From assembly GCA_030526485.1 (NCBI GenBank), contig JAUNCS010000020.1:1-35045 (forward strand): DNA of 35,045 bases, given 5' to 3'. This stretch comes from Erysipelotrichaceae bacterium (GTDB taxonomy: Bacteria > Bacillota_I > Bacilli_A > Erysipelotrichales > Erysipelotrichaceae). Both the position numbers and the translations under genes were made by a program. A model generated the notes under the pieces. It searched no databases. It was not told the DNA's origin and saw nothing but the letters and a program-made list of their open reading frames with translations. Of this stretch, positions 84-5,650 are shown in pieces. Numbering within the stretch: the stretch's first letter is position 1; each line of letters begins with the position of its first letter.

Positions 84-632
84 TTATTCCGAATAATAAA
101 GTGTTCCTTGTATTCTTGTGATTTCAATATTAGTAGGCACGGTCTGTGCGTCCCCGCTTCTTCCATATCCATCAATCAAAGATGTTTCGCTCTCAAAAAT
201 GTTCGTAATCATGCCGTTCATTTCTTGGCTTTCTAAATTAGAAGCAAGTTCTCCGATGGTTAAGACGCCCTTTTCTATGTCGATTTCCACATGTCTCCAT
301 TCCATGATATAGTTATATTCCACGGTAATATCAGTATTATATCCTACCATTTCATATCCGTTTTTCAATACAATAAAGGCAGATTGACGCATACTATCAA
401 TCTCATCAAAGGCATTCTTTATTGTTTCTGCACGTTCGACAATTTCAAAGTAATCCTGCCAGTTATCCGTTGTGATTTCTACAGTTTTTACTGTTTCTTC
501 GCTACTTCCTTCTGTAACACTTTCTTTACTTACATCGTTTTTGCTTGTTTCTTTCATTTCACTGCTGTTGCCACAAGCAACAAGGGAGAAGCACATGGCT
601 ACTACCAAAAGCATCGCAAATAGTTTCTTCAT
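84..632 (-). CDS. Predicted lipoprotein, unknown function (paralogous leader, copy 1)
   Basis: A 182-residue protein with a clear lipoprotein signal: positive start MKK, hydrophobic core, lipobox LVAC with the modified Cys at residue 20. It should be lipidated and held on the outer face of the membrane. Residues 21-50 are a Ser/Thr/Glu-rich linker, and a globular part begins near 'TTDNWQDYFEIVE' (about residue 54). I do not recognise the domain; similar 'NWxxYFEI' openings occur in other Gram-positive lipoproteins of unknown role. A Shine-Dalgarno AAGGAAGG (642-649, minus strand) supports the ATG at 632. The signal peptide and the whole upstream region are nearly identical to those of the gene at 894-1328, while the mature parts are unrelated. 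No convincing terminator is visible in positions 1-83. Confidence 0.8.
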   Translation of the reverse strand: MKKLFAMLLVVAMCFSLVACGNSSEMKETSKNDVSKESVTEGSSEETVKTVEITTDNWQDYFEIVERAETIKNAFDEIDSMRQSAFIVLKNGYEMVGYNTDITVEYNYIMEWRHVEIDIEKGVLTIGELASNLESQEMNGMITNIFESETSLIDGYGRSGDAQTVPTNIEITRIQGTLYYSE

Positions 633-764
633 AGTCGTTAACCTTCCTTTTGTATTCCTCGCATCGATTACAACGTGCGCAGCATATATAGCAGCTTATC
701 GTTCAAGAAAACCGTGTGAAACTGTTCCACTACTGCGCCCCCATAATTTTTTCAGGATAAATTT

Positions 765-785
765 TTTATATATATAATCTGTCAA
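765..785 (-). promoter_or_regulatory. Promoter of lipoprotein copy 1 with (TA)5 tract
   Basis: A perfect -35 TTGACA lies at 780-785 (minus strand), followed by a (TA)5 tract at 767-776. The nearest -10-like TATAAA (765-770) is only 9 bp from the -35. A 17-bp spacer would put a poor ATTTAT at 757-762. In the paralogous promoter at 1459-1489 the tract is (TA)10. This copy may therefore be in a low or off state; that is inference. Confidence 0.6.
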
Positions 786-820
786 GTTTAGGTCTTTCGT
801 TATCCATATCTGATTTCCAC

Positions 821-834
821 GAGGTGTAAACCTC
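821..834. promoter_or_regulatory. Inverted repeat upstream of lipoprotein promoter
   Basis: GAGGT-GTAA-ACCTC is a perfect 5-bp inverted repeat about 36 bp upstream of the -35. It is conserved with one change at 1525-1538 in the second copy. It could be an operator; nothing in the window identifies the regulator. Confidence 0.35.
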
Positions 835-858
835 ATCCCCATTTACGAAAAAGCTAAA

Positions 859-878
859 CGCGGGACTTACGCCCCGCG
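859..878 (-). terminator. Intrinsic terminator of lipoprotein copy 2
   Basis: On the minus strand CGCGGG pairs with CCCGCG across an 8-nt loop, then TTTAGCTTTTTC follows. It lies just after the stop of the 894-1328 gene. Confidence 0.75.
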
Positions 879-893
879 CTGTATTAGTTCTGA

Positions 894-1328
894 TTATTCC
901 GTTTTAAAAATTTCAAAATCGCCAAATTGGAGTTGCCCGTTTTCATTTTCTACTATCCTATATCCACACCAATGAAGTGCTTCACCAAGGATACAAATAC
1001 TTACTCCATAACCCGATTCCCCTCCACGAGCCAAACAAATTCCATTGTCTCGCCAATCAAATTCGTATATAGCATCATCTCCTTCTTGCTCGTATGTTCC
1101 AGTGCCATTCTCATTAAAGACCAGTGTTACATTGGTTTTAGGACCAGGGTGAAAACCTTTCCATGTTCCGACAGGATTGTAAGTTTTTTTCTTATCCACT
1201 TCGTTATTATTTTGTTCGTTCTGCTGCTCGTTGTTATTGTCTGCGCTCGGTGTATCATTTCCGCCGCCACAAGCAACAAGGGAGAAGCACATGGCTGCCA
1301 CCAAAAGCATCGCAAATAGTTTCTTCAT
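894..1328 (-). CDS. Predicted lipoprotein with lipocalin-like domain (paralogous leader, copy 2)
   Basis: A 144-residue lipoprotein. The signal peptide differs by one residue from that of the 84-632 gene and has the same LVAC lipobox (Cys20). After it comes a low-complexity Asn/Gln/Glu linker to about residue 46, then a small beta-rich domain beginning 'YNPVGTWKG' with 'LVFNENGTGTYE' and 'FDWRDNG'. That pattern (GTW, then F-N-x-x-G-x-G-x-Y) is typical of lipocalin-like/DUF5640-type domains in Bacillota lipoproteins. Function is unknown; an extracellular binding or envelope role is inference. It ends before a strong terminator, and its promoter has the (TA)10 tract. Shine-Dalgarno AAGGAAGG precedes the ATG as in copy 1. 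Confidence 0.82.
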   Translation of the reverse strand: MKKLFAMLLVAAMCFSLVACGGGNDTPSADNNNEQQNEQNNNEVDKKKTYNPVGTWKGFHPGPKTNVTLVFNENGTGTYEQEGDDAIYEFDWRDNGICLARGGESGYGVSICILGEALHWCGYRIVENENGQLQFGDFEIFKTE

Positions 1329-1552
1329 AGTCGTTAACCTTCCTTTTGTATTCCTCGCATCGATTACAACGTGCGCAGCATATATAGCAGCTTATCGTTC
1401 AAGAAAACCGTGTGAAACTGTTCCACTACTGCGCCCCCATAATTTTTTCAGAATAAATTTTATATATATATATATATATAATCTGTCAAGTTTAGGCCTT
1501 TCGTTATCCATATCTGATTTCCACGAGGTGTAAACCCCATCTCAATTTGCGA
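1266..1552 (-). repeat. Direct repeat copy 2: promoter, 5' leader and signal-peptide cassette
   Basis: Partner of 570-848, offset 696 bp at the coding end and 704 bp upstream of the TA tract. The extra 8 bp come from five additional TA units and two fewer T residues. The repeat ends about 7 bp before the mnmM stop codon. Confidence 0.93.
1459..1489 (-). promoter_or_regulatory. Promoter of lipoprotein copy 2 with (TA)10 tract between -35 and -10
   Basis: TTGACA at 1484-1489 (minus strand) is followed by (TA)10 at 1461-1480. A -10 TATAAA sits at 1459-1464 with a 19-bp spacer, or TATATA at 1461-1466 with 17 bp. Gain or loss of TA units would shift the spacer in 2-bp steps. The arrangement is like the TA-repeat phase-variable hif promoters of Haemophilus influenzae. 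Confidence 0.6.
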
Positions 1553-3253: not shown

Positions 3254-5650
3254 ATGTCAGTTTTTGATTTCAAAACAATTGAAAAGAAGTGGCAAGACTT
3301 CTGGGCTGAAAATGAAACATTTAAGACAGATGTTTATGACTTCACTAAGCCAAAATATTATGTATTGGATATGTTCCCATATCCATCAGGTGTAGGTCTT
3401 CATGCAGGACATCCTGAAGGCTATACTGCTACTGATATCATGGCTCGTTATAAGAGAATGCAGGGCTTTAACGTTCTTCATCCAATGGGCTTTGACTCAT
3501 TTGGTTTACCGGCTGAACAGTACGCTATTCAGACTGGTAATCATCCTGCAGGTTTCACAAACAAGAATATTGATCATTTCACTGATCAGTTAAAGGGTTT
3601 AGGTTTCTCTTATGACTGGTCTAAGGTAGTATCTACTTCTGATCCTGAATTCTACAAGTGGACTCAGTGGATTTTTGAAAAGCTGTTTGAAAAGGGCTAT
3701 GCAAAGTGTGTAGAAATGCCAGTTAACTGGTGTGAAGAACTGGGCACAGTATTAGCTAATGATGAAGTAATTGATGGCAAGTCTGAAAGAGGTGGCTATC
3801 CGGTTATCAGAAAGAATATGAAGCAGTGGATTATGGATATCCCAGCTTTCGCTGAACAGTTACTGGAAAATCTAAATACTATTGACTGGCCAGAATCTAC
3901 AAAGGAAATGCAGCGTAACTGGATTGGCAAGTCTATTGGTGCGGAAGTACACTTCAAGGTTGCTAATACTGATTATGACTTCACAGTTTTCACTACTCGT
4001 TGTGATACTTTATTTGGCGCAACTTATTGTGTGCTTTCTCCTGAACATCCATTAGTTGAAAAGATTATGACAGCTGATAAGGCAGAAGAAGTAGAAAACT
4101 ACAAGAAGGTTTGTGCTGCCAAGTCGGAAATGGAAAGAACTGAATTAAATAAGGATAAGACAGGTGTCTTCACTGGTGCTTATGCGATTAATCCGGTTAA
4201 TGGTAAAGAAATTCCAATCTGGATTTCTGACTATGTATTAATGACTTATGGTACAGGTGCTATCATGGCGGTTCCTGCCCATGATGAAAGAGACTATGAA
4301 TTCGCTAAGAAGTTCAATATTGAAATCATTCCGGTAATCGAGGGTGGTGATACAAGTGTTGAAGCTTACACTGGTGATGGTGTTCATATCAATTCTGATT
4401 TCTTAAATGGTATGAACAAGCAGGATTCTATCAATAAGATGATTGAAATCCTTTCTGAAAAGGGTATCGGTAAGAAGAAAGTTAACTACCGTATCAGAGA
4501 ATGGATTTTCGCAAGACAGCGTTACTGGGGTGAGCCAATTCCGGTTATTCATTATGAAGATGCTACTATCGGTGTTCTTGATACTGAAGATTTACCATTA
4601 ATTCTTCCTGAACTTGAAGATTATGGTCCAAGTAAGACTGGTGCACCTTTAGATAAGGCTACTGATTGGGTAAATGTTGAATACCATGGCAAGAAGGGTA
4701 AAAGAGAAACTTCTACTATGCCAGGTTCTGCTGGTTCTTCTTGGTACTTTATCAGATATATTGATCCTAAGAATGACAAGGAAATCTGTGCTCCTGAACT
4801 AATGAAGCACTGGTTGCCAGTTGACTTATATATTGGTGGTCCAGAACATGCGGTTGGTCACTTATTATATTCAAGAATGTGGAATAACTTCTTACATAAT
4901 GAAGGTATTGTGCCAGTGGCTGAACCATTCCAGAAGCTTGTTCACCAGGGTTACATCCTTGGTTCAAATGGTATCAAGATGGGTAAGAGATTCCCTGAAT
5001 ATGTTGTAAACCCTACTGATGTCGTAAATGAATTTGGTGCTGATACACTTCGTTTATATGAAATGTTCATGGGCCCACTAGAAGCTGATAAGCCTTGGTC
5101 TACTCAGGGTCTAGAAGGTGCTCACAGATGGCTGGAAAGAGTTTATCGTTTAATTGCTGAATCTGGTAAGGTTAGCGAAGAAAATGATGGCAAGCTTGAT
5201 TACTCATACAACTTCACTGTTAAGAAGGTTACTGAAGATATAGAAAATCTTTCTTTAAATACAGCTATTTCACAGATGATGATTTTCGTAAATGACTGTT
5301 ACAAGGAAGAAAAGCTATACAAGGAATATGCGATTAATCTGGTACAGATGCTGTCACCTTGGGCTCCACATATCTGTAATGAAATGTATGAAATGTTAAC
5401 AGGTAAGACTGATCTTGCTTATCGTCCTTGGCCAAAGTGCGATGAATCTAAGCTGGTGCTTTCAACTAAGGAAGTAGTAGTTCAGATCAACGGTAAGGTA
5501 AGAGCTAAGTTTACTGTGGCTAGCGATATGTCTGATGAAGATATGTATGCTGAAGCTTTAAAACAGGAAAATGTAATCAAGAATCTTGATGGCAAGGAAG
5601 TTAAGAAACACTTCGTTATCAAGAATAAGATGATTAATATCGTTGTTTAA
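3254..5650 (+). CDS. leuS: Leucyl-tRNA synthetase
   Basis: A 798-residue class-I synthetase that charges tRNA-Leu. The HIGH motif appears as HAGH in '[12 protein letters not shown]' near residue 51. The CP1 editing domain has '[13 protein letters not shown]' and '[13 protein letters not shown]' with the conserved editing Asp. 'WYFIRYIDP' and '[16 protein letters not shown]' are strong LeuRS blocks. The usual KMSKS loop reads KMGKR ('[18 protein letters not shown]', about residue 578), which departs from the common motif but keeps the second Lys. GGAGG lies just before the ATG. It sits alone behind the T-box and ends in its own terminator, so it is a single-gene unit regulated by leucyl-tRNA charging. 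Confidence 0.97.

Follow-up and report, generated by a model that had tools for sequence, protein, structure and literature searches.

A TA microsatellite in the candidate promoter region of a lipoprotein gene with a duplicated 5' cassette in an Erysipelotrichaceae bacterium

The window analyzed here, a whole contig of 35,045 nucleotides from an Erysipelotrichaceae bacterium, carries two lipoprotein genes that share a duplicated 5' cassette, and the sole insertion or deletion within this duplication of about 290 bp, a net difference of 8 bp, lies inside a tract of TA repeats. In the copy that precedes lipoprotein gene 2 this tract has ten units, a length not accounted for by chance in this genome. 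We tentatively favor a reading in which the exact TTGACA beside the (TA)10 tract would act as the -35 box of a lipoprotein 2 promoter that is tuned by tract length, with copy 1 as a short derivative with a poor promoter.

A duplicated 5' cassette upstream of two lipoprotein genes

Each copy of the cassette comprises upstream DNA, the TTGACA-TA region, a leader, a ribosome-binding site and the codons of a lipoprotein signal peptide (MKKLFAMLLVAAMCFSLVAC, as read from the sequence) (Table 1). A global alignment of the two copies contains 14 substitutions and one 8-bp gap, while the leader of roughly 150 bp that extends from the tract flank to the signal peptide is identical in both, with 0 substitutions. 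The flanks of the two copies are offset by 8 bp, and not by 10 bp, because a TA of copy 2 faces an AA of copy 1. The cassette was copied recently; no copies besides the two in the window were found in a genome-wide search, and none was detected by DNA search in other genomes of the genus.

Table 1. Features of the duplicated cassette and the lipoprotein genes (window coordinates)
Feature	Position	Strand	Remarks
Lipoprotein 1 gene	84..632	-	ORF; 182 aa, same signal peptide as lipoprotein 2, unrelated mature part
Copy 1 of duplicated 5' cassette	559..848	-	290 bp
Leader of copy 1	633..739	-	Decayed helix-turn-helix C-terminus remnant plus ribosome-binding site
TATAAA of copy 1	765..770	-	9 bp from TTGACA
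(TA)5 of copy 1	767..776	-	At background frequency
TTGACA of copy 1	780..785	-
Intrinsic-terminator-like hairpin after lipoprotein 2	857..880	-	10 pairs, 7 GC
Lipoprotein 2 gene	894..1328	-	ORF; 144 aa, lipobox VACG, acidic linker
Copy 2 of duplicated 5' cassette	1255..1552	-	298 bp
Leader of copy 2	1329-1435	-	Same as copy 1 leader
TAAAAT, candidate -10 of copy 2	1457..1462	-	21 bp from TTGACA
TATAAA, candidate -10 of copy 2	1459..1464	-	19 bp from TTGACA
(TA)10 microsatellite of copy 2	1461..1480	-	Candidate spacer
In-tract TATATA of copy 2	1461-1466	-	17 bp from TTGACA
TTGACA, candidate -35 of copy 2	1484..1489	-	Exact match

Despite the common cassette, the mature lipoproteins 1 and 2 are unrelated to each other, and no family match was found for either mature part. 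The gene under candidate control is nevertheless predicted, from its signal peptide, to encode a surface protein. For lipoprotein 2, the only Pfam match was a sub-threshold one (DUF5640); AlphaFold2 modeled its mature domain as all-beta, at low confidence (pLDDT 55), and Foldseek returned no fold match to this model below E 0.1. Lipoprotein 1 has a homolog beyond the signal peptide in only one genome of the genus (G024, 37% identity), and its predicted structure (pLDDT 36) was uninformative.

Both lipoprotein genes are preceded by mnmM and mnmL, as identified by NCBIfam; mnmM, which runs in the same direction, ends 230 nt before gene 2, and no terminator-like site was found between the two. 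The hairpin that separates genes 2 and 1, by contrast, would isolate gene 1 from read-through, so that gene 1 should need a promoter of its own; lipoprotein 1 may be weakly expressed. Beyond gene 1, whose end lies 83 bp from base 1, the contig stops. An Rfam scan matched only a tRNA, and no plausible plus-strand gene precedes leuS at 3254.

TA tracts and the candidate promoter region

The initial annotation described TTGACA, a TA tract and TATAAA in both copies, with spacers of 9 bp in copy 1 and 19 bp in copy 2, and this layout was confirmed on the minus strand, where TTGACA is followed in both copies by GAT and then by the TA run. To judge the tract lengths against chance, we used a third-order Markov estimate derived from 69.5 kb of the genome and scaled to its 1.95 Mb. 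TA runs of at least five units were expected 4.4 times and observed six times, whereas those of at least eight units were expected 0.0017 times and observed three times. Of the six runs in the whole-genome census, three had five units (that of copy 1 among them), one had eight and two had ten, while lengths of six and seven units were absent. Set against the Markov expectation, this census makes the (TA)5 of copy 1 ordinary, at background frequency, and places the (TA)10 of copy 2 in a separate class, that of true microsatellites, in line with repeats growing by slippage.

A simple weighted scoring of the whole upstream region, with weights that were hand-chosen and not trained on the source organism, was used to scan for promoters. 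In copy 2, the best pair was TTGACA-17-TATATA, followed by TTGACA-19-TATAAA, and 7% of shuffled sequences equaled it; in copy 1, the score of the best pair was equaled by 38% of shuffles, and copy 1 thus offers nothing promoter-like beyond what shuffled DNA contains. Judged by its sequence, copy 2 is a plausible spacer-length promoter. The proposal that both copies carry phase-variable promoters finds its ingredients in copy 2, where an exact TTGACA and a spacer containing a ten-unit microsatellite precede a lipoprotein gene, but not in copy 1, with its five background units and its shuffle result: only in copy 2 does a tandem repeat long enough to slip lie between the candidate -35 and -10 boxes. 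Copy 1 also bears, on the plus strand at 749-778, TTTTCA-18-TATAAT, which, of all promoter-like matches within the first 6 kb, scores highest; its spacing is allowed by the short tract of copy 1 and broken by the longer tract of copy 2.

For a tract of n units, TATAAA lies 2n-1 bp and TAAAAT 2n+1 bp from TTGACA, while at all n of at least 10 the tract itself supplies a TATATA at 17 bp; in copy 2, a further in-tract TATATA lies at 15 bp. With these hexamers available, the suggestion that nine units would be ideal proved too simple. TATAAA does not end in the T that is conserved in -10 boxes, TATATA matches four of the six -10 positions and also lacks the final T, and at n = 10 no candidate combines a 17-bp spacing with that T. 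As several -10-like hexamers compete, a graded effect would be likelier than a clean switch, and the in-tract TATATA, being always available at ten or more units, would blunt switching further.

We propose, then, that the (TA)10 of copy 2, a genuine microsatellite, belongs to the promoter region of lipoprotein gene 2, that TTGACA is most likely its -35 box, and that unit number would set both the choice and the spacing of the -10 box. Slippage would consequently adjust the expression of lipoprotein 2 by steps of 2 bp, as a rheostat more than as an on/off switch, while copy 1 would be stable at its shorter length.

The second (TA)10 of the genome (C3:90532-90551; L061:4033-4052) lies within an intergenic gap of 47 nt, much of which it fills, between a gene for an Hpt-domain protein and one for a response-regulator/EAL/GGDEF protein, and it adjoins a likely ribosome-binding site. 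The (TA)8 (C10:6664-6679; L062:3965-3980; L120/L121) coincides exactly with a change of reading frame inside a giant surface-protein gene, with frames of 1578 and 3792 codons open on either side. This gene encodes a signal peptide and List_Bact/YDG/MBG repeats (YDG and MBG in the scanned part of the 3792-codon frame), and its end resembles a membrane segment followed by a charged tail, a likely C-terminal membrane anchor. Coding phase variation usually shows itself in this way, through a repeat tract placed precisely where the frame shifts. Near C10:1975, about 4.7 kb upstream of the (TA)8, a T4 run marks a second frame break of the same gene, which leaves decay or sequencing error as possible explanations of the frame change at the tract. 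That the lipoprotein promoter, the C3 gap and the C10 frame switch together form a small set of TA-microsatellite contingency loci is, in our estimate, unlikely; were it true, slippage would vary both surface and signaling proteins, in a lineage for which the literature searched describes no such loci. Two sibling genomes (G001 and G012; L042, L045, L053) also contain long TA tracts, of 8-12 units, at distances of 4-42 nt ahead of start codons; two of these tracts precede genes for small peptides that resemble double-glycine-leader peptides.

Leader origin and alternative readings

Sequences that match the leader lie upstream of a lipoprotein gene in G024 (z 18.1) and in MT837913 (z 9.3). An upstream promoter common to the window and either relative was rejected, since the TTGACA-TA region did not align (z 1.3 and -0.5, respectively). 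Translation of the corresponding stretch in both relatives yields the C-terminal tail of a helix-turn-helix protein; read past a frameshift, that of G024 matches DUF1670 (E 1.1e-5) and HTH_38 (E 5e-4). In frame, the leader reads VSHGFLER*AAIYAAHVVIDARNT in the window and VSRYVHEHEAAVNAVRVVIDAQNT in G024. The differences between G024 and MT837913 fall on codon positions 1/2/3 in the numbers 1/1/9, a pattern that bears the mark of coding constraint, whereas those between the window and G024 are even (6/7/6) and accompanied by an internal stop in the window. The evenness and the stop indicate that the window leader is a decayed coding remnant that was copied together with the signal peptide.

Such an origin raises the chance that the TTGACA beside the tract is accidental, and it is central to the leading alternative, which we regard as possible though rather unlikely: that TA repeats and TTGACA have their origin in decayed coding sequence or intergenic DNA and were copied with the leader and signal peptide as a neutral microsatellite, whose length has no effect. 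Transcription would then start at a true promoter elsewhere or reach gene 2 by read-through from mnmL-mnmM, as the co-directional mnmM with no terminator-like site behind it would permit. This reading also gains from a search for TTGACA-N3-(TA)5 with at most one mismatch in 36 congeneric genomes, which gave six matches and six for a reversed control, and hence no enrichment of the pattern in the genus. Two observations speak against it: an exact TTGACA lies only 3 bp from the tract, and no other pair in its region scores better as a promoter than that of copy 2.

Comparison with relatives, using one genome per species, found no lipoprotein gene with TTGACA and a TA tract downstream of mnmM at any of 28 sibling mnmM loci, and the arrangement thus appears special to the source genome; it was likewise absent from 30 congeneric lipoprotein upstream regions and from both cassette relatives. 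A sequence model of the leader and signal peptide, run on 296 genomes of the class, gave nothing new that clearly contained the leader, most matches being to the signal-peptide part only, and the leader RNA was predicted to fold no better than shuffled sequences. The pattern TTGACAGATTATATA-N-AAATTTAT had four matches in the genome and viral contig collections (genome_contigs and viral_contigs), all in other organisms, and the match in a viral contig was set aside as resembling coding DNA. The leader plus signal-peptide cassette recurs across three contigs (the window; L004:1410-1500; L066:5285-5376), with similar signal peptides and different mature proteins. One of these, MT837913.1 (L066), is a 6-kb fecal contig listed in GenBank as 'Bacteriophage sp.' (unverified); by eye, its ORFs are Fic-like, transposase-like, kinase-like and lipoprotein-like, and it may be a bacterial contig.

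It is improbable, in our judgment, that the promoter works but does not vary, with RNA polymerase always using the in-tract TATATA at 17 bp, insensitive to length at ten or more units, and with shorter alleles rare. The two in-tract hexamers of copy 2, at 15 and 17 bp, would allow this, but TATATA is an imperfect match to a -10 box, and better hexamers lie at positions that depend on tract length.

Marginally less probable still is an artefact of assembly or sequencing, in which tract lengths were miscounted: the genome is a draft of 72 contigs with closely similar repeats, the contig edge lies near gene 1, and the giant surface gene has an unrelated frame break at its T4 run, yet the two copies are resolved, each with distinct flanking substitutions, and such miscalls would themselves come from a slippage-prone tract.

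The tuned lipoprotein 2 promoter thus draws on the excess of long TA runs, the confinement of the only indel to the tract, the best-scoring pair in copy 2, a lipobox-bearing product, the mycoplasma precedent considered below and the C10 microsatellite at a frame change. Against it stand the equality with the reversed control, the weakness of a test that 7% of shuffles pass, the -10 candidates available at ten units (none with both features, and TATATA always present), the lack of TTGACA-TA in relatives and a homopolymer in Mycoplasma agalactiae that proved irrelevant.

Comparison with known systems

The closest known system is that of the Mycoplasma mycoides lipoprotein Vmm, which is switched at the level of transcription by dinucleotides gained or lost in the promoter spacer, as demonstrated in ON and OFF clones; poly-TA tracts precede several lipoprotein genes in the M. 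mycoides species cluster (PMC2628566, PMC10502178, PMC3053259). The present case resembles it in having a TA tract of about ten units, with 2-bp steps, in a lipoprotein promoter region, here known from one sequence, and differs in having one long tract where M. mycoides has tracts at several lipoprotein genes.

The precedent named in the initial annotation, hifA/hifB of Haemophilus influenzae, in which a (TA)9-11 tract alters the -35/-10 spacing (PMC2651432, PMC3899988), holds for the spacing principle and fails for gene arrangement: hifA/hifB requires two divergent genes, whereas the genes that flank each tract here are all on the minus strand, with no plus-strand partner, which makes Vmm the closer model.

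Further surface protein genes with insertions and deletions between the -35 and -10 boxes are vlp of M. hyorhinis and maa2 of M. arthritidis (PMC2268961), the tract of vlp being homopolymeric A and not TA (PMC10502178). Our candidate shares with these a possible spacer-length control of a surface protein gene, the variation of vlp and maa2 having been shown experimentally.

In vpma of M. agalactiae and vsp of M. bovis, a conserved 5' untranslated region and signal peptide precede different mature lipoproteins (PMC2268961), as in the two window genes. Here, however, there are two genes only, while vpma switches by means of the Xer1 recombinase; no site-specific recombinase was found among the subset of window ORFs scanned, in a contig that ends at base 1. 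The T homopolymer adjacent to the M. agalactiae vpma promoter is irrelevant to switching (PMC2268961), which counsels caution in deducing function from a tract alone.

The duplicated leader and signal peptide, carried by unrelated mature proteins, imply that a ready-made secretion cassette can fuse to new lipoproteins. If the tract of copy 2 varies in cells, it would represent Vmm-like control of a lipoprotein by a TA tract outside the mycoplasmas, where such control has been demonstrated.
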